Positions 3,001-50,930 of a stretch of DNA of 64,000 nt are shown here, piece after piece (within the stretch, counting starts at the first letter, position 1; each line of letters opens with the position of its first letter). The position numbers and the translations under genes are program-made. Origin of the DNA: Siniperca chuatsi (taxonomy: Eukaryota; Chordata; Actinopteri; Centrarchiformes; Sinipercidae); the NCBI RefSeq assembly GCF_020085105.1, contig NC_058047.1, positions 13,711,501 through 13,775,500 on the forward strand. The letters run 5' to 3'. The notes under the pieces were generated by a model. It searched no databases and was not told the DNA's origin. It was given only the letters and a program-made list of their open reading frames with translations.

Positions 3001-3576
3001 CCAACCTGCTGTGTGGCTCCGCTCACTACTCTCCAGTCCCTCGCTGGGTCCAAGTGTTTGTTCTTCACATCCTGGGCCCCCTGGTATGGCTTCCTCCAAA
3101 GCCCAGAGGTCTAGAGGACACTGTCATCCAAAATTCTGCTGCACAAGGTAGGATGTCAGGCCTGGGATGTGATTTTACACAGGCAAACTATTCATGCATG
3201 CAAACTATATGTGCATTATGAGCTGCAGAAAATCTTTGCAATATAAACAGTCAGAGCTGCCATCACCTCCTCCCTCATCTCCTCTGCTACAGAAATGAAA
3301 GTCTCCTCTCTGGTGGCAGAGGACAGCAAGGCTTCAGAACAGAAGGGAATGCTGGATGAGGACAAGGCCCTTCAGGAGCTGAGGAGCCTGGGCAGGGACC
3401 TCCGGGCCCTCCACCTTATGGTGGAGCAGCAGCTGGGCAGAAGCCAGAGCTCGGAGGAGTGGATCCAGGTGGGTTTCATCACAGACCGCCTGCTGTTCGG
3501 CCTCTACATCCTCTTCATATCAGTCAGCTTCATTACCATCATCATTATCTGGGTGAACTCATACAACAGATTCTAA
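1..3576 (+). CDS. 5-HT3-receptor-like subunit, gene A (3' part; five exons)
   Basis: A pentameric ligand-gated (Cys-loop) cation channel subunit, continuing beyond the left edge. Exons read as 1-67, 270-433, 1171-1381, 2938-3147 and 3293-3576, all with GT/AG borders and phases that join cleanly (1, 0, 1, 1). Exon 1-67 carries the second half of the Cys-loop (FPFDIQNC). Exon 270-433 has the loop B motif GEWELVG. Exon 1171-1381 encodes M1 and the pore helix M2 ([19 protein letters not shown]). Exon 2938-3147 encodes M3. The last exon holds the amphipathic MA helix and M4 and ends ...WVNSYNRF then TAA. The acidic residue before M2 (SVDRSSFK) predicts cation selectivity. It is closest to gene C in the M1-M2 exon and more diverged elsewhere. 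Family assignment is firm; the exact orthologue (3A-, 3B- or 3C/D/E-like) cannot be decided from this window. Confidence 0.9.
1640..1890. repeat. Degraded interspersed repeat in gene A
   Basis: The words TTTACAGAGACCCAACAAAT, GAGCAAGCGTTTGGCGACAG and GGTGGGCGGCCATCCGCCGC, followed by an AG run, are recognisable from memory as a repeat common in teleost genomes. It is non-coding and lies in the intron between the M2 and M3 exons. Confidence 0.5.
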
Positions 3577-3889
3577 ATTAAGTTTTAGAGTTTTATTTTA
3601 TGAATTATTATTTGTTAACATGCTTTGTCATATTCCTTGTTAATTATTAAGCATAGAGGAAACATAAAGGTTGGTTGAACTATTTGAAGGTAATGTGTTA
3701 CACCTCTCCACTGAATTTTCCCCCTTTCACAATTCATTTTAATGTTTTAATGTAATGTGTTATTGGTTTTCTTTTATTATGTGTTAGGGCACTGAGGCTC
3801 TGAAACCAATATCTGTTTTGTTTGAAATTCCTGCTGACTCTTCGGTTGCATGGTCAGTTAAGCAACAAATATTTGCATGCTTCAACGAA

Positions 3890-4627
3890 CAATTGGACCT
3901 ACAGTAATCCCTCTACCAGATGTGTCTGCTGCTAGAACTCTGTGTGGCATTGACCTGGTCTCTAATCTGAGCTGCTGTTAACCTGCGATTTCTGAGGCTG
4001 GTGACTCGGATGAATTTATCCTCCGCAGCAGAGGTGACTCTTGGTCTTCCTTTCCTGGGGCGGTCCGCATGTGAGCCAGTTTCTTTGTAGCGCTTGATGG
4101 TTTTTGTGACTACACTTTCAAAGTTTTCCCAATTTTTCGGACTGACTGACCTTCATTTCTTAAAGTAATGATGGCCACTCGTTTTTCTTTACTTAGCTGC
4201 TTTTTTCTTGCCATAATACAAATTCTAACAGTCTATTCAGTAGGACTATCAGCTGTGTATCCACCTGACTTCTGCACAACACAACTGATGGTCCCAACCC
4301 CATTTATAAGGCAAGAAATCACACTTATTAAACCTGACAGGGCACACCTGTAAAGTGAAAACCATTTCAGGTGACTACCTCTTGAAGCTCATCAAGAGAA
4401 TGCCAAGAGTGTGCAAAGCAGTAATCAAAGCAAAAGGTGGCTACTTTGAAGAACCTAGAATATGACATATTTTCAGTTGTTTCACACTTTTTTGTTATGT
4501 ATATAATTCCACATGTGTTAATTCATAGTTTTGATGCCTTCAGTGTGAATCTACAATTTTCATAGTCATGAAAATAAAGAAAACTCTTTAAATGAGAAAG
4601 TGTGTCCAAACTTTTGGTCTGTACTGT
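3890..4627 (-). mobile_element. Decayed Tc1-like transposon remnant
   Basis: Read on the minus strand from about 4212, the sequence encodes the start of a Tc1-like transposase (MARKKQLSKEKRVAIITLRN), then a helix-turn-helix-like stretch and a GRPR-like hook (RPRKGRPRVTSA). The frame is broken by at least one stop and shifts, and stops matching near 3890. The catalytic half is absent. The right edge (4590-4627) reads like a Tc1 terminal repeat (GTCCAAACTTTTGGTCTGTA then CTG and TA). A segment at 4395-4470 on the plus strand resembles a transposase C-terminus (ERMPRVCKAVIKAKGG-like), so the remnant may be rearranged or have long coding-derived ends. It abuts the fossil 5-HT3 exon. Confidence 0.7.
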
Positions 4628-4630
4628 ATG

Positions 4631-4660
4631 TGGATCTGGAACAACTCGTACGAAGGTTGA
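4631..4660 (+). pseudogene. Fossil end of a 5-HT3-like terminal exon
   Basis: Ten codons ending in TGA read W-I-W-N-N-S-Y-E-G. The end of gene C reads W-I-W-N-N-S-Y-A-A then TGA. The match therefore covers the post-M4 tail with its stop codon in the same place. Sequence upstream is Tc1-like transposon, so the rest of the exon has been cut away. Downstream, 5022-5065 resembles the 3' flank of gene C at about 19921-19963 (shared words AGCATAAAA, TAAGCAT, TGGTT). This points to a lost or truncated fourth cluster member. Confidence 0.65.
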
Positions 4661-5689
4661 CTTGGCAGGAGAGATAAATCACACAAGTATACTGATCATC
4701 AGCAACGTTTGACTGGTTTGCAGCTTACAGTTAGAATGCTAAAATGAAAGATAATGATAACATGATCTAGTATTTCTTGATTTTCTCAGTAGAAGATTAA
4801 AAAATGTATTATTACTATTATTATTACTTATTTGATGCAGGTGTCACAGTGTCACAGTGAAGTTTCAGTGAGATTCCTAGGAGTGATTCTGAAATGCTTC
4901 ATTTGGACCCTGTATTTTAAAATATTACGCATTCACTTTCAATCTCATCCAAGGATCTGTTTGGCTATGCATTGCCCAGTTTAACAATAAACAGTAAATA
5001 GTATATGTTGACTGGTGATCAGTGAGTCACAGGTTTCTAAAGCAGCATAAAAGCAAAATTAAGCATGTGGTTCGACAGTACAGTACACAGCACTGGAGAA
5101 TGGAACAGATTCTAACTCCCATTGGTGGAGGTGTTGAAAAATAAAATGGGTGAGTGGTTACCGAAGGTGTGGAACAACAAGTCCTATGTTGTCCTGTGTG
5201 TGTTGTGATCCATCTGGACATACCACAATGTTGTGTGTTTTGCGTTTCTCTTCATTTATACCTATTCATGAGGATTAAATGTCCTCCAAAGGATAAACAT
5301 TTTCTGTCTGTGCACTTATTTGCAAGATAAAAGTTTGAAAACCTTTTTTACTTGAGGTTTGTACTGAAAGAAAAAATATAAACAATTTTAATGGGGCAAC
5401 TAAATGTACATATAGCTATTTCTAATTAGTACCGTGTTGTGTTTGTTTGTAGAGGTATAGTCTGCATGTGATTGTGTGTGTTTATGTGTGTGAGTACTTG
5501 TATAACTCATACTGTGGAGAAAAAACTGTTCACACATTATGGGGACAAGAAGCTGGTTCCTTCAAGGTAAACCACCACATTTGAGTGATTTGCCTTGGTT
5601 TTTAGTTTTTGTGTAAGGTTAGGGTTTGGTTAGGGTTATGTTATGGGTTGGTGTTAACCATGTAGTGTTTGTATTGTGTTTGTTGTAGT

Positions 5690-5778
5690 ATTTCTCTCTC
5701 TGTGAAGCACTTTGTGCTTTGTTTTGATAAGTGCTCTATAAATAAAGTTTTATTATTATTATTATTATTATTATAGTG
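5690..5778 (+). repeat. Retroposon-like 3' tail with ATT repeat
   Basis: The segment reads like the recurrent fish repeat end GAAGCACTTTGTGCTTTG...GCTCTATAAATAAAG followed by a run of ATT units (about 5747-5774). This looks like a SINE/LINE 3' tail, recognised from memory of fish repeats and not from an alignment. Confidence 0.4.
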
Positions 5779-5952
5779 GTTGTGGTTAAGGTTAGGGTAG
5801 GTCTCCAGAGAATACTGTTAGTCATTTCAATGACCTGCTAAGAGGCAAAAACAAATGTGTGTGTGTGCATTTACAAGTAGAAGCTATCTTTGCTTTACAC
5901 ACGATTAGATAGGTGGTTGTGGAGGATATTTGGTCCATCAGAAACATCCAGC

Positions 5953-8900
5953 ATGAGTCCGTCTCAGCAGAGTATCAGCATCATCTCAGGTTTACTCTTA
6001 ATGTCAGGTAATGATAACCTACTTTTATTCACTACTTTACTGATTGTATGTGTTTTATTTTCCAGACTGAAGCATGTTTAGCTCTGTAACTGAAAAGTTT
6101 CTCTTTCTCCTCGTGTGAATAATGACCTCACTGTTATTATTTTAGCAATAATTACTGTAGTAGTTTATTCTGTTTGTTTTCAGGTTTTAATGGCAAATTT
6201 AAATTCTTGACTCTTATCATTGCATATGAGAATGTATAAATGGAGAAAAACCCTGAAAACATTCATCATGTACCAATCCACTATATTTTACATTTGTGAT
6301 GTCTAGTGTCGAATTCAAAATAAAGGAATCTTTCACCTTATTTGAGTCATACATTACGTTTGAAGAACATGTTCAAGTAATGTCTACTATCAAAGAGCAT
6401 TTACTCTATGCTCTATATTATCAATATCATAACATTACTCGATGTATCTAGCTGTTTGGCTTCCAGTTTAATGATACAGTGATTATTCAAAGCTCTTTCT
6501 GTTCCATGTCTATATAATTATGATTTCTTCTGATATTTAAGTCTGCAATAATATTCTGTTTAGTAACTTTGCTGTAAAAAAAATACATATATTTTTTCAT
6601 AGTTTTGATTAATTTGATCCATTTGTAAGCAAACCTGCAAATGAAAAGTACAGCATTTTGTTTTACATGGTTTAGTATAGCTTTATATTTAGAAAACAGC
6701 TCATCATTTTCTCAAAATCATTAATAATGGGAAAGTTTAAAAGTGCAATTAAGATGTAATTAAAGCAACAGTAAAGTGTTTTTGTAAATTTTCTCTATTG
6801 TCAGTGTCTCTATGTTATAGTAAACTGTCCTGTGAAGAAGGCCACAGCGGTCCAACCCATGAGTCCATGCAGGCTGTGTTTGACCTACAATCCTTCAGGC
6901 CAGTAGTGAACCTCAGCAATCCCACCATAACCAACATCTCCTTCACCCTGTATGCTGTCCTGGGGGTGGTGAGTTTGTCAATTAGAGATCTAAGAAAAAT
7001 ATTAAGAGCACCTGAATCCAGATTATAGAAGTTCTAAGAGAACCTCCACTATAGCTGTCAATCTATAAATGTGCAAACATTCATCACTGGAATTCATATT
7101 ACTGATTATGATATGTATTGTTATAAATCATTGCATTTTTTAATTAACTCTAACCTGGCTTAAGATGTAGCAATCAGCTTCGCATCAGGTTTACTTGTTG
7201 TTTACTGTATTTCAGAATGAGAAAACCCAGATACTCACCACTTTCTTGTGGCTGAGACTGGTAAGTAGCATGGAAAGACATAATACACTGTCAATAAATG
7301 TGATGCAGTTTGATCCAAATTTATCATGTGCCTGTAACCACAGCAGGAACAAATACAGAGATTATAAAATGACAGACAAGCAGACATTTTAGTTTTATGT
7401 TGGAAGTTTAACAGTGATTATTGTTGATTAATTTACTGCAGTACTGGCACCATGAGTTCCTGATTTGGGACCCTGATGAGTGTGACGGCGTCATCAGGAT
7501 TTCTCTCCCTGTGAGGCAGCTCTGGTCTCCAGACATCATCGTGTATGAGTTGTAAGTTCTCTAGCTATAAAAGGTGGTTGTTGTGTTTTTTTTATTTTTG
7601 ATGGATCCCTGAGCATCTTGTAAGCACAAACTAAATTCAGATGGACACACTTACCACCCACTGACATCCTGTAAAGTTCCAGTGAGATTAAGTGTCACTG
7701 GTTCATATTTAGCACCAACTCACCAAAAGTGAACATTTAACCCCATAAGCACTGGACGGCTTATGCACTCTGAACAGTGCCCACCATTGCAAAGTGATAA
7801 TCCATTCAGCTGCAGGTGTTGACACAGGACGGGAGGAGATCCCTCCTCCTGCCTGAATCAGAGTTCCTGGCATGTCTGAGGGCAGCCAAAGACTCTCGAG
7901 TCCTATCTAAACTATGTCCAGATACAACCTGGCACACTGACAATCTGGAGATACTAAAATGACAACTGCTGTTTCCTGATCTTGTGAACCAGCTGCATCA
8001 TCGCTCCTTGAGGTGGCGGCACATATATCAGTCCCAGGGGCTACACAGGGTGAGCAAATGCATCATCTGCCTGGGGAGGGGCATCGCTCATCCTCCTGTT
8101 AAAATATTTTGGAAAATCCAGCATGCGAAGCTGAGAGAGCAGAATGGTTGTATGAATTGTGAATGTGATTTTACCTCTATGTTTGTTTCCCCATGGCTCT
8201 CATTAATTAACCATCTCAATGTGTTTTTCTGTTAATTTCTTTTACTTCATTCTGACTCCTCCACTTCCAACCCTCCCAGTGTGGATGATGATGTTTCCCA
8301 AGCATGTCCTTACGTCTACGTGAACCACACAGGTCACATTCGCTGGGACAGGATGCTTCGGCTTGTCTCAGCCTGCAACCTGGAGATCTTCAGTTTTCCT
8401 TTTGATGTGCAGAATTGCACATTTACATTTGGCTCCTACATGCACACCAGTAAGAAAAGGCTTCTTAACATTTACACATTCACACAATCATAAACTCATC
8501 TAGTTATTGGCTACACTTAGACAAATTTTGTCTACACAGACTGAACCAGCTTTAAGCTGGCTCAATAGTGGGTCAGAAAATGCAACTGTAATCTGTTGCA
8601 CTTTTGGGATCTTTTGCAGGGAATAAAAATAAATACAAAAGGAAAAACAAACAAACAAAAATCAAAATAATTATGTAATAAATCAGTTATTACATTTAAC
8701 TAACTTATTTACTTATGTTAGCTTAGATTGTACTACAGAACTGTCTGGCTAGTTTTCCCTCTCTCTTTCCCTCTCTTGTTTTTTTTCTCTTTCTTTCACA
8801 GTAAGGGATGTGAGGGTCAGTCCAGCCCTGACCTTTAAGGAGATGTCTGAAAACTCAAAGCGTTACCTGGAAGCCAGTGGAGAGTGGGAGCTGGTGGACA

Positions 8901-11048
8901 TACTCGGGGAGACCTCCATCCTCCAGTTTGGGATCGATGAGTGGGACATCATCACCTTCTGGGTGAGGGAAACCCATGAGTTTTCTACTCTTACCTCTGC
9001 AAATATAACAGCCGTAAACAAAATATCTGGCTATCAGACATAGTACAGCAACAACGATCACTTATGTTGAAGGGACTGTTTGACATTTGGGGATATTACG
9101 CTTATTTGCTTTCTGATCAAGAGTTGAGAGGATCAACACCTCTCTCTTGTCTGTATGGTAAATTTGCTACTGGAGCCAGCAGCCGGTTAGCTTAGCTTAG
9201 CATAAAGACTGGAAACAGAGAAACAGCTAGCTTGGTTCTGTCCAAAGGAAACAAAATCTGCCTCCCAGCACCTCTAAAGCACACAGAATAACATGTTATA
9301 TCTCGTTTGTTTAATCTGTACAAAGGCCAAAGTGAATCTGAAAATCCGAGGGCAACTGCTGGATGTGTAAACAAGCAACTGTTTCATGCATAAATACAAA
9401 AAACTCTTTAAACTGAGTCTTGTTCACTAGGTGGTCATAAAGCGGCGGCCAGTGCTCTACGTGGTCAACCTGCTGATCCCCAGCTCCTTCCTCATGCTCA
9501 TCGACATCCTGTCCTTCTACCTGCCCCCCCATAGCGTCGACCGCGCCTCCTTCAAGATGACCCTCATCCTGGGCTACACAGTCTTCCTGCTCATCATGAA
9601 CGATCTGCTGCCCAGCACAGCGAACGGCACGCCCATCATAGGTCAGAGGTGGTGACCCCCACCACAAGCCATTTCCTTTAAGCTGCATTATAAATGTTTT
9701 CATTTAAACAAACACTTTTGCTGAGGAGGAAATACTATATTATTGTTCCAAAACAGAGTACAGTCTTGAAAGTGAGTTTTGAAAGCTGGAAATCTGAGTA
9801 CCTTGTAAAAGAAATCACTGAGTCAATGGAACTAACCAACAACTCTGTCAACTCGCTGCAGATACATTTTGGCTGCCTTCTGCTACTGAGGAAAGAAGTT
9901 TTACATATGACCTCTTTAATGTGTATCCTTTGATCTCTCAATCTATCCTTCAATCTAGGTATCTATTTCTCGGTGTGTCTGGCCCTCATGGTCATCAGTC
10001 TACTGGAGACGGTCATCATTACCAATGTCCTCCACCACAGCACCATGAAATATCAAGAGATTCCAAACTGGGTGAGGGTGGTTGTCCTCAAATACATAGC
10101 CAGCCTCATCTGCTACCGATGGCCGGAGGACGTCCAGCCCCCTTCTATACCACAGAAGGATAAACCTGACAGCCCAAATGACAGCTCAGGCCCATGGATC
10201 ATCCAACCAGCAAGCCAGACACCTGCCCAGCACCCAACCAGCAACGGAGGTAATTAAACAGACTCAGTAAATAACAAATACTACTTTGATATTCCTTTTG
10301 TCAACTGGAGCTGCTCAGTGAGGCCTGACCTTGAAAATACTAGAGGTCATCTATTAAAACAAAAAAAGAAATATAATTCTATGTACGTCAGGAAAGGAAA
10401 TATGCCTCATCTAAAAAAAACCTAGCCATATTATAATGAAACAATTTCTACTATAACAATGAATCACAGTTAAGGTTAACACTGATGCTAGCTCTGTCTT
10501 ACTAAAGCTAGCTAGCCCATTTTCTCATTATTGCTTTGCTCATTATTCTTTATCTCCATAATCAAACAAATGAAAAGCAGCTTATTCCTTATATGTAGAG
10601 TATATATCAGAAACTGGCTTCACAAATACAATTTAAAGCAGCAGTCTTGTAAAAATTACCAATTTTGTGCATGAAGTCCATGCTAAGTTCAGAGTAATTA
10701 CTAGCTGGTTTATCTAAACAGATCAAGCCAACATTAGCTTTGTCTGTTGGTTCAAGCAGCTACACAACAGTTACAGCTGCTAGTCACTGGGTGTAGACTG
10801 TGATCCCTCCTATCACTATTCTCCTGCCAGGTACTGCTGCTCTGCCTGAACTGCAACAGATCTGTCGATACCTGGGCGACCTTCGTGACCACCTCACCTC
10901 ACTGCAGAAGGAGAGCGAGCTGCAGGGCCAGTGGTGCCACGTGGGATATGTCCTCGACTTCCTGCTCTTCCGCATCTATCTGCTGCTCATCTCCTGTTAC
11001 GCCCTGGTCATCATCTCCATGTGGTGCGTCTGGATCCGTCAGTCCTAA
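5953..11048 (+). CDS. 5-HT3-receptor-like subunit, gene B (complete, nine exons)
   Basis: Cys-loop ligand-gated channel subunit, 474 codons. Coding exons: 5953-6007, 6805-6968, 7216-7260, 7442-7551, 8280-8449, 8802-8962, 9431-9641, 9959-10249 and 10831-11048. All borders are GT/AG and phases agree; the same plan is used by gene C. The ATG was chosen because the first exon gives a hydrophobic leader ([10 protein letters not shown]) ending in phase 1. Recognisable parts: loop D (LWLRLYW), loop A (YEFVD), Cys-loop [15 protein letters not shown], loop B (GEWELVD), M1 after IKRRP, M2 ([19 protein letters not shown]), M3 ([17 protein letters not shown]), a Ser/Pro-rich intracellular loop in exon 8, and M4 in exon 9. 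Oddities: a Trp where the other copies have the loop C Tyr, and no arginines at the MA-helix sites that restrict conductance in human 5-HT3A. Function as a serotonin receptor is inferred from family. Confidence 0.93.
9066..9345 (+). repeat. Interspersed fish repeat inside gene B intron 6
   Basis: Contains TTTGGGGATATTACGCTTAT, GCCAGCAGCCGGTTAGCTTA and TAAAGACTGGAAACAGAG. I recognise this as a repeat found throughout percomorph genomes. Related blocks occur at about 23150-23310 and 26843-27242 in this same window, which supports its being interspersed. It has no coding content. Confidence 0.55.
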
Positions 11049-12059
11049 CTGGACATGGGTTGGATGTGAACCAGGGAATTCATAGGAAGCCTAAATAACA
11101 AATTAAAAAGCAATTTGTATAAGTAGAAGGCAATAGTAGAAGGTTATTGTTTCTGTAATGTTTGTTTAAATTTTGTTTTCTGTGTTTGTTTTTGCAAGGA
11201 AATACCATGTACATGCAGTACTGCTAGTTTTGTGTCCTGGAGGATGCACCAATAAGTAAATGTAGTGTAATGGTTTAGGGGCAGTAACTGTATAATCATT
11301 ATCATCATCATCAACAGAAAATATTTAGAATTTCCATGTGTTATTTGCTGCTGTTGAAAGGCTAACTAATCCCCCAGCACAGTTGGCCCCTGGTCTCTTC
11401 TCTGTCAGTAAATGTCATTAGTTTGCATCTTTCTTCAGGGAAAAAAATCTAAAATATCATAGTGACCCCAAAAACAATGGAACAAGACCACTTCTGCCAC
11501 CACAGAGAAAGAATTTTGCTACAATGTCCACTTTCAATGCTGTCAATGCTAAAACTCTGGAGGATGTAGTTAAGCACCTTAAACAATCTACCTGCTGCTT
11601 TGAAACTCTGCCCACCACCTTTTAAAACAATGTTTTCAAGTTAGCAATGGATGAGCTGGAAACTGTGAGGGGTTCACTCATATCAGGCTTTTTTTTATCA
11701 CTGAAAACTGCAGTTATTTAACGCCTTCTAGAGAGGCGTTCTGTCTTTCATAAACCTTTATTGCCTCACTTATTTGTCTTGAGGTTATTAAACACAGTCT
11801 CACCTTTGTTTATTGCTGTCAAAGATGTCTAAGATTGGTGGAGGGAATTCTTATACTCTGTTTTCTTATTTCAGGACATATCTTCACTTATTCACTAAAT
11901 CACTTATTTATCAAAAAAAATCTTTTTGCATAAACATGTACTCTCAATATCTTAATGTAGTTCTCTGTGAACTTGCTTGACTTATGCTAACGGGCTAACA
12001 GAGCCTTAGTGCTGATGAAAAATGATTAGTGGACCGTATTTTCAGCCATGCTAGCAGCG

Positions 12060-12500
12060 TGACTCTGGCAATGGCAATGTCAGCCGGTGGCTCCACCACT
12101 TTGGACCACACTGAAACATCTCAACATTATCAGATGAATTGCCATGGAAGTTTGTACAAACATTCATTATCCCCAGAGGATGGAGCCTACAGCCTGGGAT
12201 GATCCTCTGACTGTCCTTCTAGCACCACCCGCACCTCAAAGTTTTCACTTATCCTGTGAAATATCTCAACATCTGCTGGATGGATTGGCACAAAAATTTG
12301 TGCCAATTTGTGTTCACCCCCAAGATGAATTGTAATCACCTTGGTCACCAGGTCAAAAATTGAATTTACAATACTTTAGTTTATGACTGAATACCTGCAA
12401 AACTAATGATATTTAGCACTAAACTCCCATCAGCCTCAGCTGATGGGAGTTTAGTGCTAATTAGCAAATGTTAGCATGCTAACACGCTAAACCACCGAAT
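12060..12500 (+). repeat. Interspersed fish repeat with GCTAAC-rich end
   Basis: It has internally repeated phrases (TTGCCATGGAAGTTTGTACA with ATTGGCACAAAAATTTGTGC; GAGGATGGAGCC with AAGATGAATTG) and a TTAGCAAATGTTAGCATGCT end. This matches, from memory, a very common non-coding repeat of percomorph fishes. A perfect hairpin (12413-12460) lies in it. Confidence 0.5.
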
Positions 12501-12591
12501 AGAGGCAAAGCATAACCTTTGCACAGTCCCCTAGAAGGCAAACTGACAGCAACCAGCCAAGTGCTTACTTTTGTGTTTGCCTTGGCTCTTA

Positions 12592-12876
12592 GCAAATGCA
12601 AGAGAAATTGTTGACACATATGATCCAAATGCACCTGAAGATGATTCAAAAACCTGTCGAACAATCCAAGCACTCATTATGCAAACACAATCATTCACAG
12701 ATGAGTGGAATACCACAAAGGCTTGGGATAGTCATGCGACATTGTGCCATATTCCAGAGTCAATATTAGCCTCTGGCGGAGGTTACACATTTCACCTAAT
12801 TACTGATAAAATTCATGTTGCTCCTGCAGAACGTCTCAAACTGATGGAGCAGACTGATGCCTTTTTTGTTTTGTAA
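12592..12876 (+). other. Unassigned open frame upstream of gene C
   Basis: About 95 codons stay open from an AG acceptor-like site (CTCTTAG at 12586-12592) to a stop at 12874-12876. The predicted peptide has mixed, protein-like composition (for example EIVDTYDPNAPEDD and HVAPAERLKLMEQT) and no low-complexity run. There is no ATG at its beginning, I recognise no family, and it ends 43 bases before the gene C start codon. It could be an old exon, a transposon fragment or chance. Confidence 0.2.
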
Positions 12877-12919
12877 TCTGAGGTACTTGTTGTGATACAA
12901 GGCTTAACTCAGACTGAAA

Positions 12920-15900
12920 ATGACAGCGATAAAGCCCGCTGTGCTCATCTTCATCTGTTTCATGCTGTTTCACGGTAAGGCAGGAAAACATTTTGACTAT
13001 CCACAAAATAAGCAAAGAAGATGATCTGTTAAAAGCTTAAATATTGCAAGTTGGCAGTTAAAGGGGCACTTCGGTTGCTTCTGGTCCTGTACAGTGGGAA
13101 CCTTGTATACACTGTATACATAAATAATATATATGTAGTTATGAAATACAAGAAAGCAAACAGATTAATATATGCCAACAGTTTGCATATTGACTAAATG
13201 AGTTTTATAACAGCTATGTGGCACATTAATAAATACAGTTTCAGTCCATGTTTCTATGAGGTATTTATTATTTCTAGCTTTTATTTTTCAAATGAATATC
13301 AGGGAATTAATCTCTTTATTTTGGTTATTAAAAGATTGGCAAAGTTATCAGGCACAAATCTGATTTTAAAAAACAGTACTACCTATCTTCTAACAGGGCA
13401 CCCTTTATAAGCTGTTTATAAGTTGTAACTAATGGTTTTATTTATTTTCTTAACATTTTTTGGGCTATTATTAATGACAGGTGAGAGACTGACTGGAACT
13501 GAGAGATGCAGCAAAGGTCCACGGCCAGATTAATAATTAATGTGTCATTTAGTAATAGTTTATAGACCAGTTATGAGCCATTAATAAGAACAACTTTTGC
13601 ATTGTTGTGGAAAAACTCTAACTTGTGTTCATTAACCATTAATGAAGCCTTTAGTTGCAACTTATAAACCCTTTTTATAAGTGTCTGACAGACATACAGA
13701 TGTGACTCTAAAGGTATCTGATCTTTCAGATGTATCAGGCGAGAGGCAATTTAGTGACTGACCATACTCCTACCATACTATAGAAGCCAAGAACAGTAAT
13801 TTAATTTTACCCTGTGATCTCAAGATTACAAAACTATTGTAACCACAGCCGTCATTGGCTTCCCTACCATACCCATATTGTATACAGCAGACAAAGATCT
13901 GCAATGCCTCTGTGCACATACCAATAAAAGAACTGGGACTGCATACTTCCATGTGCATGTATATCAGCTATCTCACAAATTTAATTTTCTACTTTCTCTT
14001 TTTAATCTCAGGTTTTGTAGCAGCACTGAACTGCACCAGCCCAACTCCTGATTCCTTGTTTAATGCCCTTGAGAAGGAATTATTCCCTAAAAAACTGGTG
14101 CGTCCTGTAGAAAGGTTTTCAGATCCAATTAACATAACCATCGGTATCACTCTGGTGGGAATTTTAGGAGTGGTGAGTCTACACAAACAATTACTCATGC
14201 CTGCACATGAGCGTGCATAACTTTTTCATTGATTCAAATTCATAATTAATCTGTATTACTGCCTCTAACTGACCTAAAATATGTCTCATCCATAGGATGA
14301 AAAAGCTCAAACCGTGACAACAGTCTTATGGCAAGTACTGGTAAGTTTTCAGGTCACTTACAAAAACATCAGTAAATTCAGAAGTCTTTGTCTAATTAAA
14401 TCCACTGTGTGTAGATTTCTTATGTGATTATAGCATCTTTCCAGTTATTCTGATTGCATTAGTTTTTGTTTGTAGCAAAATAAGCCAATCCAAAGGGTAG
14501 GAGGCGTGTCTTTTTTGATACAACCGCTGGGGGGAGTTTAATTCCCAAATGATACATGCATGTCTAGTTGTTCAAAATTACTAAAATGGAATACACTGAA
14601 ATTAAAGTTAATTGACTTTTTATTGTTCATTAACTTGTGACTAAAGATATTTTTATGCAAAATGATGTCTTGTATGCTTATCATCATATGGTAACATTTT
14701 AACGTTTTTCCCCCCAAAATGAATATGTGAGGTAAATGAAACATTATATTTTTCTTTCTTTTTTTCTTTTTGTTAGTTTTTGTAGTGACACAGTTAAAAT
14801 GGTTGCCGTTTTCTGAGCTGCACATCGCATTTGTATTGTTCTGTTTAATGTAGGAGTGGGACATAGCGGGACTGAGCTGGGATGAGAAGGAATGTGGAAC
14901 TACAAGAGTCTCTGTCCCTCGAGAAACTCTTTGGGTCCCAGATGTCCACATCACAGAGTTGTAAGTTAAAATGATTTTCAGTAGTCTGTGAGCTTTTTCA
15001 ATTTATTGTCCAAATCAAAGAAATTAGCCTTCAAGTAAAGTAAAAAGCTAAAATGTAAGCATTTGGAAGCAATAGATGGGAAGGGAGAAGAGAGGTAAAC
15101 CTCCATGCAGGTATAAAGTCTTATAATTGTTTGGTATTATGGAACTTAAGGAATCTACTTTTTGTCCATTTTAATCCATTTTATGCTAAAAATTATGACT
15201 TTTTTAAGTATAAAAGGACAAACTCATTTTGGTCAAAAAATATTACACAAATTCTAATAAACAATGAAGCTGTCTGAGACGGATATGAACCTTCTTGTCT
15301 TTGTTTTCCTCTGTCCTTTTAAAATTTCTTGGATTAAATCATTAATTAATTAATAATTAAAATGTTTTTTCTATTGTATTCTATTATTTCACAGCATGGC
15401 CGAGGACAACTCTCCCAAAACTCCCTATGTCTACTTATACAACACAGGTCACGTATATGATGATAAGCCGGTCAGAGTGGTCAGCTCCTGCCGATTAGAA
15501 ATCTACTCTTTCCCCTTTGATATCCAAAACTGCTCGCTGACCTTTGGATCATATCTGCACTTTGGTAAGCCTGCTTGAATACATAAAGTGCGATCTTTGA
15601 ACTGCTTGACTTAAAAAAAATCACTGCAGGATCAAATGCAACTTTGTATACTACAAAATGCCTGGTGTAAGCAGTGATTAGAGTTGACAAATGTTGATTG
15701 GAGATTAACTCTGGGCATTTTTTTTTTCTATTGTTACTCTCTAACCTGGGGCGTACTTTGCCTTAGTTTTTCTGTTGCCCCACATTCAGATCATTTGACA
15801 AATATGCTATTAAATGTTATTCAAGCTACAGACATAAGGATGATTCACAGCAGATCGTCTGAAGAGATCCTGGCGGAGTCCAGAGATGTGTTGGAGACCA

Positions 15901-17706
15901 ATGGGGAGTGGGAGCTCGCTGATATCAGCATAGCTCGCTCTACCTTGGCGTTAGAAGCGGGAAGCTACTCTGAGATCAAATACTTTGTAAGCACTTTTAA
16001 TTATTCTATGATCACTTATTTTGAATTGTAATAGCTGAACACACCTAATTCCACACGATATGATAATTGCATACAGTATAGGCATACAAAGCAATATACT
16101 TAACTGCTTTATAGTAACAGGAAATGATAAAATACGTGTGCTGTCAGACATCAATCAAACTGCAACTTAAGAATGACACTGGCGATTAAATTTAACAAAG
16201 CTGTTTCATCACTATCCACAATTAGTTTTTCCAGTTGGGAGAAACCTTTTCCTTTTTCCTTTATGCATTGCATTGTTGGAGAATAGTGCATATAAACAGC
16301 ACACACACAAATCAAGTGTTTCTTAGTATGCATACTGTTTTGAGTACTTTATTTTGTCACTTTTCTAGAGTGAACACACTACATACTCAAAACGTGCTTA
16401 GAAATAGTAGGTGGTATGGATTTGGTTTTGATTTGATCGACTGTCTCAGTATTCTTTAAATTCTGGCTACACACACAGTGTTAGTGAAAGTGGTGGCTGT
16501 CTGTCCCACACCTTTCCAGTAATACATCATTGTGTTGTTTGCCAAATGCAGGAGGACCTCCGGGCAACTTTCATAGTAGTACAAAATGTATTCAGTGGTG
16601 ATTTATTAAAGTAAAAATGTGAAAATGCCATACACAGCACTCTAAAAATGTCAGCATTTGCAGGATAACACACTTCCAATGTGACAAGAAACCTAAAGTG
16701 AATCCTTTTGCATCCGAATTCAGAAAGAAATGAAGATAAATGTCCAAAGTCTGACTAAAACCTTGAGGCATTGTACTTGTGTCTCTTCCCAAGGTCATTC
16801 TAAGACGTAGGCCAATCCTCTATGTGGTGAACCTGCTGATCCCCAGCTGCTTCCTCATCACAGTGGACCTCTTCAGCTTCCTGCTGCCTCCCAAGAGTGT
16901 GGACCGGTCCTCCTTCAAGATGACTCTCATCCTGGGCTACACAGTTTTCCTGCTCATCATGAACGACCTGCTGCCTGCCACTGGGGAGACGACGCCTCTC
17001 ATCAGTGAGTGATTTTGATTTAATTCCAGAGAAGGTTGAAGGAACATGCGTGTCTTTCTGACTTCACTGCTGCACGTGTGCTTTTGAAGCTATGAGCTGC
17101 TTAGTTTAACCACACCCATGTACTGCAGGCAACTGAACAACTCTGGTGATGTCAACATGGGAGGAAAGTGTTTATTATCACATTTCTGGATAGGGACTAT
17201 TTCTTCAGTTGAAAGTAGTTCCAATTAAAGCTTTTTTTTAAGTGAATTCTGTGGATTATTTAGAGTAACACTCAAATTCATTGTATTGGAGTGAAAGCAA
17301 AAATCTCAAAACCTGGACAAATGAAACCAAACTATCTGCAGGGCTAGATTCCACTAAAACAGAGGTTTTCAAACTGTGAGGGGCGCTAGCGCCTGAGTTG
17401 AAAGGGACATGGGCATGTAGTCTCCTACAAAGTCAGGAAGTTTTTGTTTTGTTTAGCTCGCTAATTTGGACCACTCACCAACAAGGTCAGCAGTTGGAAC
17501 TGCAGTAGTGGCTGTGACACACACCACATGGAGGCATAGGTTAACTCAGTCAAATCTGAACACACAGACGTGATACATATATTTTTAGATTCATTGTGAC
17601 TTACACTACATTAACCCTGATGGCCATCACAAATAAACTTCAGAAAATCCAATTAGAAATCATAGGAGAAAAAAAGATGCTCCTCATAGCTCCAGAACTT
17701 CCCTGA

Positions 17707-17753
<47 letters not shown>

Positions 17754-19750
17754 TTACTGAGGCTTAAAAAGCCCCATTAACATGTTTCTCATCTTTCTGG
17801 AACAGTGACACTCTTCTCTATCCATTCATATACAAATATTTGCCCTGTGTTGAGAAAACGCTTCAGTGAGTTTTACTGTTACAGTTTACTTGGACATTAG
17901 TATCCTGGAAGGGTCTGGTTCTCACAAGGAGATAAATAGCAGGTTTCTCAAGTTTTAATATAAACATAATTTCCCAGAATAGAAGGTCATAACCAAGATA
18001 TGACTGAAAACCAGGTTACTAGTGTGCATGTACTTAATGAAAAGTGTACTGAATTTCTGCTGATGTCGTTTCCTGCAGGCATATTCTTTTCCCTCACTCT
18101 CGCTCTGATGGTGGCCAGTCTGCTGGAGACAGTGTTTATCACTAATATCCAGCTCAGCTCCAGTGAGTACAGTGCGGCGCCTCACTGGCTCAGTGTGCTT
18201 GTGTTACGATATCTAGCTGTTGTCGTTTGTCTCCCTCAACAAAAGAAGAGCAACCGCATCACAGTCTTCATCAACTCATCTACTGGAGGTATATCATTAT
18301 TATTATTATTGATATTAACTATAAAAGATGTGAGATCTTTGACCAGACAACTGGTTTAGTTTGACTCAGTTTGCAGGGATTTGATGGTGAAATCCTTTGA
18401 AGCACAAGTAACATTTGATGGACTAAATAAAAATTAATAAGACTACATGTTAAGTTACAGAAAACTAATATTGCTTTGTTTACTGTCACCTCCTTTGTTG
18501 AAGAACTTATGAGAAAACAAAATCTCCCCTTCTCCTTCCTCTGCAAAATACTGTATATATTAAATATATGGCCAGTGAAAGAGTTTTCTGTTTGTCAGCC
18601 GAAGTTTTAATCAGCCTTTTCACCCTTTTTCAAATGGTGACTTTCTATTATTCATGTCAGTTATTGGACAAGTGTAGTGATAAGTATGAGGTGGAGGCAA
18701 AGAATGTCTCTTGTGTATATCAGGACACAGTGTACAACCACACTTCCACCATGCTACTTACCTCAAGCAACGAAAGATGCTGTGCTGAAACTGTCCACCA
18801 TATATTAAAATGTGTGCGTTTAACTCGTGGTCAGGTGTGTTGCAGTTAGAGATAATAGGAAACATACTGTGAAGCGATGGTTCCCAGCCCTTGCTGTCCA
18901 AGGCCTTTGTGGAAATTGCTCAATAGTATTTCACCTCGGTGAATCCATTTAACACGTAGTGATTGTGTGGAATCGTCTGTTTAGAGCTTCGTTGGATTTA
19001 TGTCTTTTCTTCAGTAGGTTTGGTCAATTTTGCATTTATTCTACCACTTGGAGTGGCAGAAGTTGGAGGTTTCACCATTTATTCATTTTGACCTAATTCT
19101 GCATGCTTGACCTAGTAGTGTTGAAGTACTCTCAATCACAAAGTTTGGTGTTAAAATGTTGCATCTGACTCAGGTTGAGACTGAGATATGTCCTGCACAG
19201 TGGACTTGAAATGTTACGAATTACTGCGACAATAAATGTTATAGAGATCAGCATCACACCAATTTTAAATCCCATTTGTGTGCTTATTTTCCTCAGCAAC
19301 ACAAATATGTGGCTATATAAATATTTTACATTAAAATCATTTGACATTTTCTGCACAAGTTTTATATGATTAGTAACTAGCTATTTTACATGTATTAGAA
19401 CTAAAACAAGCTGACCTTTGTTTTTGACAGAACCAGCAATGAATTCCAGTATCACAAACATCACAGCAAGTCATCTTCAGAGCATCTATGGTGATACAAC
19501 TCCAGTGAAACCCCCTCCGCCGGGCCCTCCGGAGCCGGAGCTGGATGAACTGAGGAAGCTGAGCAGAGATCTCATGGCCATTCGCCACCAGCTGAACAAA
19601 TACTTCCAGGGGACCAACACCTCGCAAGAATGGCAAATGATCGGGATAGTCATCGACCGTCTGCTGTTCATCTTGTACATTGTCTTCATCGTCGCCAGCT
19701 TCTTCACCATCACGTGTATCTGGATCTGGAACAATTCGTATGCAGCATGA
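12920..19750 (+). CDS. 5-HT3-receptor-like subunit, gene C (complete, nine exons)
   Basis: Cys-loop ligand-gated channel subunit, 477 codons. Coding exons: 12920-12974, 14012-14172, 14296-14340, 14854-14960, 15395-15564, 15832-15986, 16794-17004, 18079-18288 and 19431-19750, all GT/AG with consistent phases. The ATG gives a clear signal peptide ([12 protein letters not shown]). Recognisable parts: loop D (LWQVLEW), loop A (ITEF), Cys-loop [15 protein letters not shown], loop B (GEWELAD), loop C with Tyr, M1 after LRRRP, M2 ([19 protein letters not shown]), M3, a Pro-rich segment ([12 protein letters not shown]) before the MA helix, M4 and the tail WIWNNSYAA. The acidic residue ahead of M2 predicts a cation channel. 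It is tandem with A and B in the same orientation. Intron 8 (18289-19430) contains an open frame of 93 codons with no family support. Confidence 0.93.
17715..17752. repeat. (AT)n-(AC)n microsatellite in gene C intron 7
   Basis: A run of AT dinucleotides passes directly into AC dinucleotides. It is non-coding and a likely length-polymorphic marker. Confidence 0.95.
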
Positions 19751-20393
19751 TTTAACTAGAGGGTTGCTAGCAGTAAATATGGTATCTGTATTTAAACTAT
19801 TGATAATCAATCCGTCTCAAAAACATGCACAGCTGCGATGGCTATGTCTTTCAAAAAGGCAGTCAACATCCTCAGGGGAAAAGAAAAACCTCTTCAGTGT
19901 GAGATTTGACTTCTGATTACAGAGTTTTTAAAACAGCATAAAACCAAAAATAAGCATATGGTTAAAAATAGGCACAAGCACAACTAAGTCATGGGGCAGT
20001 TAACTATTCAAGAAGGTCTTCACAATTATAGTAGTAAAACTGCAGATGTGAACACGTTTGCAATATTGCATTTTGAGATATGAGTGTGAGAACTTATTTG
20101 TTTGCAGTTTGTATTAAAATACACCAACAAACTTCAAAATCATCCAGATCATTGTCTACAAGGTATACATTTCATTGTCTGTTATTTTTAGACTGATCGA
20201 AAAACAAGATCATTAGAAACCTTTTCCAGAAACTCCAGGCCACGCAGTTGTGCTTAGTAGGCAAATTGTTGAGGTTGAATTTCTACTGAAATATTGACTG
20301 TCACAATACATCCACTAGATGGTTCCATTGGTTGATTGTTGGAGTTTTTGTACAGAGTAAGCTGTTTGATTTAGGCATATTGGCTTTTATATA

Positions 20394-22037
20394 CAGTTGT
20401 ATGCAAAAGTTTAGGAACCCCTGACAATTTCCATGATTTTCATTTATAAATATTTGGGTGTTTGGATCAGCAATTTCATTTTGATCTATCAAATAACTGA
20501 AGGACACAGTAATATTTCAGTAGTGAAATGAGGTTTATTGGATTAACAGAAAATGTGCAATATGCATCAAAACGAAATTAGACAGGTGCATCAATTTGGG
20601 CACCCCAACAGAAAAATCACATCAATATTTAGTAGAGCCTCCTTTAGCAGAAATAACAGCTTCTAGACGCTTCCTATAGCCTGTAATGAGTGTCTGGATT
20701 CTGGATGAATGTATTTTGGACCATTCCTCCTTACAAAACATCTCCAGTTCAGTTAGGTTTGATGGTTGCCGAGCATGGACAGCCCGCTTCAAATCACCTC
20801 ACAGATGTTCAATGATATTCAGGTCTGGGGACTGGGATGGCCATTCCAGAACACTGTACTTGTTCCTCTGCATAAAGGCCAGAGTAGATTTTGAGCAGTG
20901 TTTTGGGTCGTTGTCTTGTTGAAATATCCAGCCCCGGCGTAACTTCAACTTTGTGACTGATTCCTCAACATTATTCTCAAGAATCTGCTGATATTGAGTG
21001 GAATCCATGCGACCCTCAACTTTAACCAGATTCCCAGTACCGGCACTGGCCACACAACCCCACAGCATGATGGAACCTCCACCAAATTTTACTGTGGGTA
21101 GCAAGTGTTTTTCTTGGAACGTTGTGTTCTTTTGCCGCCATGCATAACACCCCTTGTTATGACCAAATAACTCAATCTTTGTTTCATCAGTCCACAGCAC
21201 CTTATTCCAAAATGAAGCTGGCTCGTCCAAATGTGTGTTTGCATACCTCAAGCGACTCCGTTTGTGGCGTGTGTGCAGAAAAGGCTTCTTTCGCATCACT
21301 CTCCCATACAGCTTCTCCTTGTGCAAAGTGTGCTGAATTGTTGAACGATGCACAGTGACACCATCTGCAGCAAGTTGATGTTGTAGGTCTTTGGAGGTGG
21401 TCTGTGGGCTGTTTTTGACCGTTCTCACCATCCTTCGCCTTTGCCTCTCCAATATTTTATGTGGCCTGCCACTTCTGGCCTTAACAAGAACTGTGCCTGT
21501 GGTCCTCCATTTCCTCACTATGTTCCTCACAGTGGACACTGACAGCTTATATTTCTGCGATAACTTTTTGTAGCCTCCCCCTAAACCATAATGTAGAACA
21601 ATCTTTTTTTTCAGGTCATTTGAGAGTTGTTTTGAGGCCCCCATGTTGCCACTCTTCAGAGTCAAAGAGAACAACAACTTTCAATTGGCCACCTTAAATA
21701 CCTTTTCTCATGATTGGATGCACCTATCTATGAAGTTCAAGGCTTAATGAGCTCACCAAACCAATTGTGTGTTCCAATTAATCAGTGCTAAGTAGTTACA
21801 GGTATTCAAATCAACAAAATGACAAGGGTGCCCAAATTTATGCACCTGTCTAATTTCGTTTTGATGCATATTGCACATTTTCTGTTACTCCAATAAACCT
21901 CATTTCACTACTGAAATATTACTGTGTCCTTCAGTTATTTGATAGATCAAAATGAAATTGCTGATCCAAACACCCAAATATTTATAAATGAAAATCATGG
22001 AAATTGTCAGGGGTTCCTAAACTTTTGCATACAACTG
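20394..22037 (-). mobile_element. Tc1-like DNA transposon with long inverted repeats
   Basis: The 1644-bp element is bounded by TA on each side (20392-20393 and 22038-22039). The ends begin CAGTTGTATGCAAAAGTTTA and mirror each other for about 210 bp (20394-20605 and 21828-22037) with only a few mismatches. The internal gene runs on the minus strand. Size, TA duplication and long inverted repeats are standard for vertebrate Tc1-like elements. The near-identity of the two ends suggests a fairly recent insertion. It sits between gene C and the 3' end of rubcn. Confidence 0.97.
20622..21644 (-). pseudogene. Tc1-like transposase with a single nonsense codon
   Basis: From ATG at 21644 (MGASKQLSNDLKKKIVLHYG) to TGA at 20622 there are 341 codons, the normal length of a Tc1-like transposase (about 340 residues). 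The DDE catalytic blocks are visible: WTDETKIE, FQQDNDPKH and SPDLNIIEHL. N-terminal helix-turn-helix motifs and a GRPHK hook precede them. The only break I see is a TGA at 20799-20801 (codon 282). It falls where the family has Trp after IIEHL, so it is likely a TGG-to-TGA change. The frame then stays open to the natural end. As it stands the product would lack its last ~59 residues, so this copy is probably not autonomous. Confidence 0.92.
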
Positions 22038-25303: not shown

Positions 25304-28300
25304 CTAGGTCCCACCTCCCTCGTCTTCTTGTTCCTCCATGTTTTTGCGCGCCATCCTCTCTCTCCGCTCTGCCAGACGCTGACATCGAGGACAGCCTTTA
25401 CCTGTCCGGAAGCAGCTGCGATGGTAACACGCATGGCACTCTGAAAAGGGAAAAACATCACAAAAACAAAGGTCAATGATGTGACACTTCAAAGCATTTA
25501 CAATACAAATGTGTCATCTTAACAGAGGAGTATAACAGTTTTCACAGAGAGCTCCCATCTGCTAAACCAAACAATGCTGCAGTGTTCACAGACGTTAACC
25601 AGTTGAACAAGTTTTCCAAAAATGAGATGTATGTTTTAACAGAACAGCCAATCACAATCAGACCTGAGGAAGGCAGGGTGAAAAGAGGAGTATAAAAGAC
25701 GCAGAAGTTAAAGGCAGAAGGCAGAAGGCAGGAGGAAGCAGGGAGAAAGCAGATATCCTGGGAAACAAACGCCACACCCTAAACCTGTTAAGACGCATCC
25801 CATTCTTCCAAAACAGGCCACCAGAGTGCTTTAAAACTCTTCAATGTCTTAACTACTCTGCTCCAACAGATAGTCATGACTGCAATCCCTGTCTGAAATG
25901 ATTTTTATTCTATGTTTCCAAAAAAAAAAAAATGCAGTGAAAGATAGATAAAATGACAAGCAACTCAAATTCAAAAATGGTGTTTATTTAATGTTCACAT
26001 GAAGATGAAGCTTAAATAATAGCAGGCAGATGTATAAAGCAACTAAAAGCATAAATTACACATTCATTTTGACACATGTAGTCACCTCGCATTATAAGAC
26101 ATTCTTCCTTCAACAAATATCTAAATGAAAACAAAATGGCTTAAAAACCAATCACAGATGAGGCAGCTTAGCAACAAGCAATGTTTCCTTTAAGCTGGAA
26201 GGAGTCTATATTTAAATGAAAAACTACTTCTGCTGATTTCACAGAGGGGTGATTAGTGATTAGTAAAATCAATCAATCAATTAAAGTAGTGGATGGTTGG
26301 AATAAAAACAGACTCCTCCACTGGCTTAGGAGGAACATGTGTAACAGACTACTCTTACAAATGTCCAAACTGACATTCACGACCAACGCAAACTGAAATG
26401 TAAACGTTTATGAGTGATACACCACTTTGGTATTGTTTGCCATCCAAGTTTTGTCCCAAGACAAAAGCAGAACAGAGCTCCGAACCAAAGACAGGAAACT
26501 AAAAACACTGATGACAGCTTCCGTATCAGTCATGAAGCTTTACACACCAACACCTCCAGAATCAAAGCCAAAGGCATCCACCACCAAATAGCTGTCAAAT
26601 ATCTACTCTCCACTAGTTGTGCAACTGTGCAAACGTCACAGCCAAAGCCAAGAAATACCAACACCACTGTAGTGCAAGGAGCTCAGTGCCAAATGAGAAC
26701 AGTAGAAGAATAAGTGTGCAAAATGTTTCAAACCACCAGACGGTTGAAAGGCTGTGAAAAGTTAGATTAAAGAGGGAGACAGAAATATAAAGGTAGGACT
26801 GCACAATCAATCGGGTTTTATATTCTTACAACATTAAAATACTTAAAGGAATTGTCATTTTGGCATTCGATATTTTGGAAAGACATAATGAGAAGATAGA
26901 TACCGCTCTCATATCTGTTTGCTAAATATGAAGCTACAGTGAGGAGGAAGTCACTGCAGTCAGCCAAGAAATAGTGCAGCTCACAACTAGTCTGGCTCCG
27001 TCAAAAGGTAACAAACTCCATCTACCAGCACCTCTAAAACCTACTAATTTACATGTTTTATCTCATTTGTTTAATCCTTACAAAAAACAGTCTTTATGTC
27101 TTTATGCTAAGCTAAGCTAACCAGCTCTTGACTCTAGCCATGATATTTACCGTATAGACATGAGTGGTATCAATCTCCTCATCTAACGCTCTGCAAGAAA
27201 GCGAAATAACCATATTTCCCAAAATATTAAACTATTCCTTTAATGTTACTTAATTACTATAACATTTGTTTACTAGAAGTTGTAAAAAAAACAAAACAAT
27301 TAAAATACTGCCAGGATGATGGTAAAAGACACAAAGAAAGTCTAATCTGCCAAAAATATTCAGCTTCAATGTAGTTGCATACAAAATAAAACCAGTGTAA
27401 ACCCTTTAAACTGTTTTCACTTTTGCTTGATATGATTAGGTAAGGTCAACTAATCCTGAAGCCCTCAGTTAACAGTTATCAATCAGTCATTAGTATCTGG
27501 ACAAATACAAGCTACTGTTATCCAGCAGATCCATCAAATATTAAACTTTCAGCTATTTAGTGTACTGTAACTTGGCTGATACTGTATATCTTTATATTGC
27601 TCTTACTCTTGTCCTCTACCTCTCTCAGTACAATAATCCCCGTCACATATCTCTGCACTCTCTCCACCTTCTGTCTAGCTCTCTTTTTCTGTCCCTTCTC
27701 TAATCTTCCTGCCTCTGGTTACTCTCCTGGCTTTGCGAGTTTTACGACCTCTCCAGTTAGTCTTGGTTATGGTGGCTGGCTCTTCCTCCTCAGCATCCAT
27801 CTCTCTTTTTTCATCGCTCTCCCCACTTTTATCCTCCTCTCCCCTGCTCCTCCCTCTGGAGAAAACAGCCGGTAGCTGTTGAGGTTTTAACAATTTCATA
27901 ATTTTAAATTTCTCCACGTTTACTGCACTAGAATTTTCTGTTTCAGCTGCCTCTGTTTGGCCTTTGTCTGAAATTTCATCATTCTCCTCAGACTCCCTCT
28001 CAGCTTTTCCGTCCTCCTCAGTTCCCTTTACTTTCTCCAAAAATCTTTCTTCCTCTTTCACTTCTGTTTTCCCTTCATCCTCTATCTCTCTTTTTGTGAA
28101 ACCCTTGGTAAGATTCGCTAACCCTGATACTATCCAACATCCTTTCCCCTCTCGTCCTACTTCATCTAGACTTTCCACGCTGCTGTATGTTTCACTGTCA
28201 CTGTCCCTTCTGTTTGCTTTAGAGATGCTCTTCTTTAGTCTGTCTATTTGAAGAACCTTTAATAAGTTGACTTTTTCCCTTTTTGCACGCCCATCTCCCC

Positions 28301-29191
28301 TTTCCTTACTGTTTGCCCTCTCTTTGCTATATACCTCCCTATGTTGACCATTTCCTCCCTCTTCTCCTCCTTTATCACCCTTTGTCTCTTCCTCCCTCTC
28401 TGACTCTGTCCCTCCTACTATCTCCTGCTCCTCCTCATTGCCTTGACTCCTGGAGAAAGCTTTCACCAGCTTTCCAGGAGTGAATACTTGAAATATTCTC
28501 CCTCTTCCCTTTCTCTCTTCTGCTGTGTCATCCCTTTCCTCTCCACTCTTCACCCCTTGATCCACATCTAGCTCTAAATCTTCCTCCCCTCCCTCTCCCT
28601 CTTTCCTGTCTTGGAAGAGGGTCCTTGCCAGCCTACGAGGTTTGGAGATCTTCCAGTCTCTCCAGGTAAGTGGAATGGAGAGGCGGGGGGAGGGGGCTCT
28701 GAAGCCGCCCAGGCCTGCCACCAGCAGTGAGGGCTCACCTTCACAGCGCTGGCACTTGTTCAGCTGGAAGGGAAAGATGATGTCTTTGTCGTTGCCGCAG
28801 AACTCGCACACAAAGCCCTTCGCCTGGCACAGCTGGGGGAGATCAAAGCAAAAGTGACAGAAAAACCAGACATTTGATTAAGATGGGAATCTTAATTTGC
28901 TGACATTACAACAGTTCCTGATCCTGTGTGATAGTCCACTTCATACGTCAGTTGTATGTTTTATCACTGCAATAAATTACGTGGATGAACTCTAAATGTT
29001 AAAAGAGAAGGCACGTGGTTATCTTACCACACAGCCAGCTACGTGCATGGTACCAAGTTTAAGCAGCTCTTTCATTCGGGGAGCCAGATCACCGTTGCGC
29101 ACAGCAGTGAGGTCATTGAGGGAGAAGAGGTGAAGGTCCTCTGTCAGGTGACCTGGCAGGCTGTCGAACTTGTCCAGCACCCTGAGGGAGG

Positions 29192-49320: not shown

Positions 49321-50930
<1,610 letters not shown>

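Follow-up and report, generated by a model that had tools for sequence, protein, structure and literature searches.

A candidate alternative C-terminal coding segment of rubcn, open through the donor of the penultimate exon and carrying five copies of a short motif

Alternative C-termini that arise by reading an exon on into its intron have been described in other genes. RPGR-ORF15 consists of exon 15 plus intron 15, forming an alternative terminal exon that is read into a purine-rich intron, and in place of the normal C-terminus it supplies an acidic chain, rich in Glu and Gly, with a basic C-terminus after it (PMC6770968, PMC4890669). The basic domain of RPGR is described as recruiting TTLL5, which glutamylates the chain (PMC9897430). 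A composite terminal exon is formed when a donor goes unrecognised and all sequence is kept up to an intronic cleavage site (PMC5928244), and in the CstF-77 gene the intron that harbors an intronic poly(A) site has a weak donor (PMC3708835). Rubicon binds RAB7A through its Rubicon homology (RH) domain (PMC11090050), and skipping of exon 14 in human RUBCN is reported to alter autophagy (PMC5453322, PMC9117662). A terminal-exon switch in Rubicon was not found in the literature searched, which was covered partly by title and abstract and included few subscription journals.

The window (the whole stretch of DNA analysed, 64 kb) is part of contig 6 of a fish genome of 719 Mb in 65 contigs, the same genome that was used for the searches described below. 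The C-terminal end of rubcn lies on its minus strand, and the features of interest are collected in Table 1. Beside rubcn, nt 1–20000 (plus strand) hold several open frames that form an apparent cluster of several genes, and these we take, by eye, to be related to Cys-loop ligand-gated channels of the 5-HT3-receptor-like kind. A 293-residue open frame at nt 20799–21680 (minus strand), the longest in the window after the one described here, is presumably a Tc1/mariner transposase, judging by eye. Nt 56880–57215 (minus strand) presumably represent TSC22-domain-like sequence, and nt 49501–49621 are a perfect AT repeat of about 60 units.

Table 1. Features at the C-terminal end of rubcn (positions in the 64 kb window)
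Feature	Position (nt)	Strand	Remarks
rubcn penultimate coding exon	28739..28832	-	31 residues and one base of a split codon; belongs to the Rubicon homology domain
Donor GTGAGC ending the penultimate exon	28733..28738	-	Must be ignored for the tail; context AAG/GTGAGC
Putative read-through coding tail	27675..28738	-	TAG included; codon count starts with the split Gly codon (28739)
Motif copy 1	28611..28658	-	16 residues; corrected scan, held-out profile
Motif copy 2	28449..28496	-	16 residues; corrected scan, held-out profile
Motif copy 3	28218..28265	-	16 residues; corrected scan, held-out profile
Motif copy 4	28092..28139	-	16 residues; recovered by the scan of width 16 but not by widths 13 and 20
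Motif copy 5	27855..27902	-	16 residues; corrected scan, held-out profile
Basic C-terminal stretch	27702..27767	-	22 residues, after an acidic run
Candidate poly(A) signal AATAAA	25983..25988	-	As ATTAAATAAA; intronic; number not above chance
Second intronic AATAAA	starts 25909	-	Number not above chance
Canonical last coding exon	25304..25440	-	First codon split, ...GGGT end; runs to stop; intact; aligned to 6wcw

The penultimate exon is recognised by Pfam RH_dom (31.1 bits over residues 1–31, cut-off 28.1), and its frame, LCQAKGF...CQRCE, corresponds to residues 188–218 of human Rubicon 6wcw (E 4.3e-9). When it is joined to the two preceding exons and to the last exon, the product gives a 138-residue alignment with 6wcw (E 4.9e-64), indicating that the normal C-terminal end is intact. 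Cys and His residues of the RH domain include those that bind zinc. The last exon encodes five Cys and two His of the domain, all of them absent from the read-through form. RH_dom matched the 385-residue read-through piece at model positions 150–179 of 206, and the Cys/His set of the domain is incomplete there. Because these seven residues are gone, the tail form would likely lose Rab7 binding, we infer.

In the minus-strand frame of the penultimate exon, translation can pass the donor at nt 28738 and, with the split codon at nt 28739 taken as the first, proceed for 354 codons before it meets a TAG stop (nt 27677–27675). This bears out a preliminary description of the locus, made from the sequence, in which the frame was said to stay open for about 354 codons past the donor. 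Across the same stretch the other two frames of this strand have 21 and 28 stops, and the tail frame has none. If these 49 stop triplets were spread randomly over the three frames, the probability that none would fall in the tail frame is 2.35e-9; the stretch is thus not stop-free by composition, since the stop triplets fill the other two frames. Codon positions are also used unevenly: of the 354 codons 153 have G at position 1, compared with 95 at position 2 and 103 at position 3, and only 35 have T at position 1. The resulting periodicity statistic (30.9) was equalled by 3 of 605 control segments of the same length, drawn from the rest of the window as overlapping segments on both strands with exons included. 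The tail very probably is coding sequence, either now or until very recently.

Searches for relatives of the tail returned little. Tail DNA and tail protein each matched themselves alone in the genome, in a search that scored the best candidates (1 and 6), skipped very common words, and is no proof of rarity. A repeated element was considered as the origin of the tail and rejected, as neither DNA nor protein found a second match in that genome search. Pfam and NCBIfam gave 0 and 0 families at E values up to 5. The six PDB matches to the read-through piece all lie in the Rubicon part or extend 2–6 residues past the junction, and none of the 92 pattern matches in a prokaryote collection, nor of the 27 in a viral collection, was confirmed. 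These results are also what might be expected of a relic, i.e. a tail once used by rubcn, or a fragment of a lost gene, that is no longer made and is still open through its short age; the lack of a second copy in the genome, the lack of named relatives, and the strong donor upstream all suit that reading. Base frequencies, however, predict 20.6 stops per frame over this stretch where the tail frame has none in 354 codons, so that any decay must be recent, and a relic is considered unlikely.

A more basic objection is that the frame is open by chance in a purine-rich intron, and that its motif reflects pattern-seeking in lysine-rich sequence. The tail stretch is 70% purine (0.704) and 15% T, and purine-rich sequence favours long frames, because few T means few stops. 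In Markov simulations trained on the sequence (orders 1, 2 and 3, 3,000 each), the mean longest open run at order 2 was 91 codons and the longest run in any simulation was 309. The lowest stop count in any frame, however, was 4, 2 and 1 for the three orders, and none of the 9,000 simulations reached zero.

The purine content of the tail was not matched by any segment in a 200 kb sample of the same genome (twenty stretches). Of the segments printed from that sample, the ten richest in purine (0.674–0.701) all overlap a single 550-codon open frame, with 0 or 1 stops in one reading frame against 30 to 38 in the remaining two. From its translation, read by eye, we take this frame to be a LINE endonuclease/coding region. 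Three frames of at least 354 codons occur in the sample (550, 395 and 361 codons), all presumably retroelement coding sequence, judged by eye and, for the latter two, from 60 residues. As far as can be judged by eye, then, long openness of one frame in the 200 kb sample went with coding sequence. Reading on from the two preceding rubcn exons gives a stop after 1 and 3 codons. The canonical C-terminus has 11 matches in the genome, of which four are rubcn itself, six fall at four other places (L006; L007 with L008; L009; L011 with L012) and one is weak (E 1.8). Around the equivalent exon at these four places the open frames measure 99, 57, 45 and 82 codons with the exon included, and no long read-through tail was seen at any of them. 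L009 continues into the next Cys pair and is not a strict read-through control, since the intron is missing at that point.

The tail contains 17% Glu, 11% Gly, 10.5% Arg and 10.5% Lys, and the chain is acidic and probably disordered. Basic segments set in acidic linkers, as had been described at the outset, are indeed present: the five motif copies carry a net charge of +2 to +4, and the four linkers between them -7, -5, -3 and -12. Towards the end of the tail, a net charge of -7 at residues 307–324 is followed by +9 at residues 325–342. Calculated as helices, copies 1–3 have a hydrophobic moment at the 97th–98th percentile of the tail, while copies 4 and 5 are at the 84th and 79th.

The five segments, with anchors at 0, +2, +8 and +12, are all found where the preliminary description placed them, its numbering agreeing when residues are counted from the GTG at nt 28811. 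Equal spacing of the five, also claimed there, does not hold: the copies start at tail residues 29, 83, 160, 202 and 281, i.e. 54, 77, 42 and 79 apart, and fixed spacing is a property of the anchors within each copy only, not of the copies. Common to the copies are hydrophobic-x-hydrophobic, then Leu (+8) and another hydrophobic residue (+12); Ser or Thr follows at +13 in four of five, and Arg or Lys at +14 in four of five. The last anchor is loose: in copy 1 an L at +12 is followed by F at +13, and the +12 residue of copy 3 is I. Since the invariant Leu is encoded by CTG, CTG, CTA, CTT and CTA (three different codons), the likeness of the copies is one of protein.

How far the motif exceeds chance depends on how it is defined. 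The fixed pattern occurs five times in the tail and at most twice in 20,000 residue shuffles. With a floating four-anchor hydrophobic pattern, however, five copies of some such pattern turned up in 1 of 300 shuffles, and hydrophobic antisense frames match the fixed pattern 5, 4 and 2 times, so that the fixed pattern gives too strong an impression. A plain BLOSUM62 self-scan with no composition correction missed the motif and chose acidic low-complexity windows, which were equalled by 3 of 150 shuffles when shuffling was global and by 50 of 150 when it was local. With composition correction, a scan at width 16 returned exactly the five copies, and 0 of 200 shuffles did as well for each of three shuffle types (global, 20-residue blocks, 12-residue blocks). 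At widths 13 and 20 the tail again beat all 600 shuffles each, with copy 4 missed and one other window added; the window chosen for copy 3 at width 13 was shifted by three residues. Each copy in turn, when held out, was the top-ranking segment of the tail for a profile built from the other four, and the held-out score was reached by 6, 0, 1, 5 and 0 of 300 shuffled tails, in a test that was run after the copies had been chosen. The claim that the motifs go beyond chance is therefore upheld by the corrected scan and the held-out test, but the bare hydrophobic pattern is weaker than it looks. Taken with the 49 stop triplets in the other two frames, the simulations and the coding-like periodicity, these two tests leave a chance origin highly improbable.

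Outside the tail, the motif was not recovered convincingly. In a six-frame scan of the window the next segment scored 12.2 bits, against 28.1–32.0 for the five copies, which themselves built the profile. The best match of the profile was to a galactonate transporter (E 0.079). Against the genome, the motif consensus found the tail itself at E 0.146 and two loci on contig 8 (C8) at E 0.60 and 0.66; the latter were read by eye as piggyBac-like transposases and rejected as chance matches. The two (L034, nt 1588–2898; L035, nt 1588–2892) are very similar frames about 18.5 kb apart that look piggyBac-like by eye. The known short motifs LIR ([WFY]xx[LIV]) and RVxF, compared by eye, seemed not to fit.

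The splice signals bear on how the tail is joined to rubcn. It could be a coding exon of a different gene nested within rubcn, with its own promoter or with upstream exons in the rubcn introns, a possibility that the preliminary description had also raised. Nothing in the tail beyond the exon matches Rubicon, and its composition is unlike that of the rest of the domain, as such a gene would predict. Yet the only in-frame ATGs of the tail are at residues 281 and 314, no pyrimidine-rich acceptor was found between the donor and nt 27855 (by a simple, untrained rule of [CT]AG with at least 70% pyrimidines upstream, which leaves GAG-ending tracts outside), and the tail continues the phase of the penultimate exon across the donor. 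A nested gene is thus disfavoured, and we regard it as a slim prospect. By eye, a pyrimidine tract ending in GAG is seen near nt 28660, outside the acceptor rule. The donor of the penultimate exon scores 10.8 bits with a consensus matrix and is the highest-scoring GT site between nt 28760 and 25441; other GT sites inside the tail score 5.8 bits or less. The tail could also be an internal insert, joined in frame to the last exon by splicing, as GT sites at nt 28309 (5.8 bits) and 27826 (5.3 bits) share the phase of the exon donor and fit the last exon, but neither comes near the score of the exon's own donor. Splicing from the first would cost the tail copies 3–5 and its basic end, splicing from the second its basic end, and this arrangement is very improbable indeed. 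With no early ATG, no acceptor before nt 27855 by the simple rule and no donor above 5.8 bits inside it, the tail is seen as attached to the penultimate exon and probably terminal.

Nt 28738–27675 are therefore probably best read, on the evidence of the sequence, as an alternative C-terminal coding segment of rubcn that would be used as a composite terminal exon. A switch of terminal exon, as first proposed, remains the simplest reading given the continuous frame, the lack of an acceptor before nt 27855 and the two late ATGs; the strength of the donor speaks against it, and the AATAAA count does not favour it. Two intronic AATAAA were seen versus 1.12 expected (P 0.305), and the better of them (nt 25988) is 1.7 kb beyond the tail stop. 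Downstream of that stop, nt 26840–27250 (minus strand) presumably represent a common fish short mobile element (TTAGCTTAGCTTAGCATAAAGAC), and this would fall in the 3' untranslated region of a tail transcript. Donor strength is the main point against frequent use of the tail, and because this donor is the strongest site, read-through would have to be a regulated or minority event. That the tail is expressed is something we infer.

On the composite terminal exon reading, the strong donor of the penultimate exon would at times go unrecognised, transcription would run on into the intron, and the mRNA would be polyadenylated within the intron, with the AATAAA at nt 25988 as a possible signal. The 354-residue charged tail would then replace the last 45 residues of Rubicon, leaving the part before the switch in place and removing the end of the Rab7-binding homology domain. 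In exchange the protein would gain an acidic, probably disordered chain, basic at its end, in which five short basic-hydrophobic segments are set. The five segments might form a multivalent contact surface, as amphipathic helices that bind membrane, calmodulin or a partner; this is the most likely role for the tail, albeit a tentative one. The resulting Rubicon could be located differently, or could compete with the normal form. A bolder and rather doubtful proposal is that fishes of this lineage make a second Rubicon by way of an ORF15-like terminal exon. Such a form would lack Rab7 binding, carry a five-valent tail of an undescribed basic-hydrophobic motif, possibly be under phosphocontrol at the Ser or Thr found directly after the last anchor in four of the five copies, and act independently of Rab7 in phagocytosis or at cilia. 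If true, a switch of C-terminus to a multivalent tail would amount to a natural separation of the two roles of Rubicon, the ORF15 design (a purine-rich intron giving an alternative C-terminus) would have a second independent case, and the five segments would define a new short linear repeat.

Compared with the normal C-terminus of Rubicon, the tail form would share the RH domain up to the CQRC pair and be without the last exon. Exon 14 skipping in RUBCN is another splicing choice in the same gene, but it concerns an internal exon and involves no terminal switch (PMC5453322, PMC9117662). As in composite terminal exons, the frame runs through a donor, and an acceptor of its own was not found by the simple rule; the available account of such exons stresses truncation with loss of a C-terminal domain, while the rubcn tail would add 354 residues and a repeated motif (PMC5928244). 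The weak donor reported for the CstF-77 intron contrasts with the strong rubcn donor, and this counts against use of the rubcn tail (PMC3708835). With RPGR-ORF15 the tail has in common a purine-rich, intron-derived frame, an acidic chain rich in Glu and Gly (17% and 11%) and a basic end. The purine content, at 70%, is lower than the more than 80% given for ORF15 across a range of species, and the five hydrophobic-basic copies have no counterpart mentioned for RPGR in the accessible parts of those accounts (PMC6770968, PMC4890669). ORF15 expression is established, whereas the rubcn tail is a predicted product. GEEEG and GEEEEG repeats, the proposed glutamylation sites, occur 0 and 0 times in the rubcn tail, which has one GEEG, and because they are absent the tail is not filed as a member of the ORF15 type. 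RPGR and rubcn are unrelated host genes. The rubcn tail, by this comparison, is like RPGR-ORF15 in gene architecture only, with an acidic chain and basic end that would be read from a purine-rich intron in place of the normal C-terminus.
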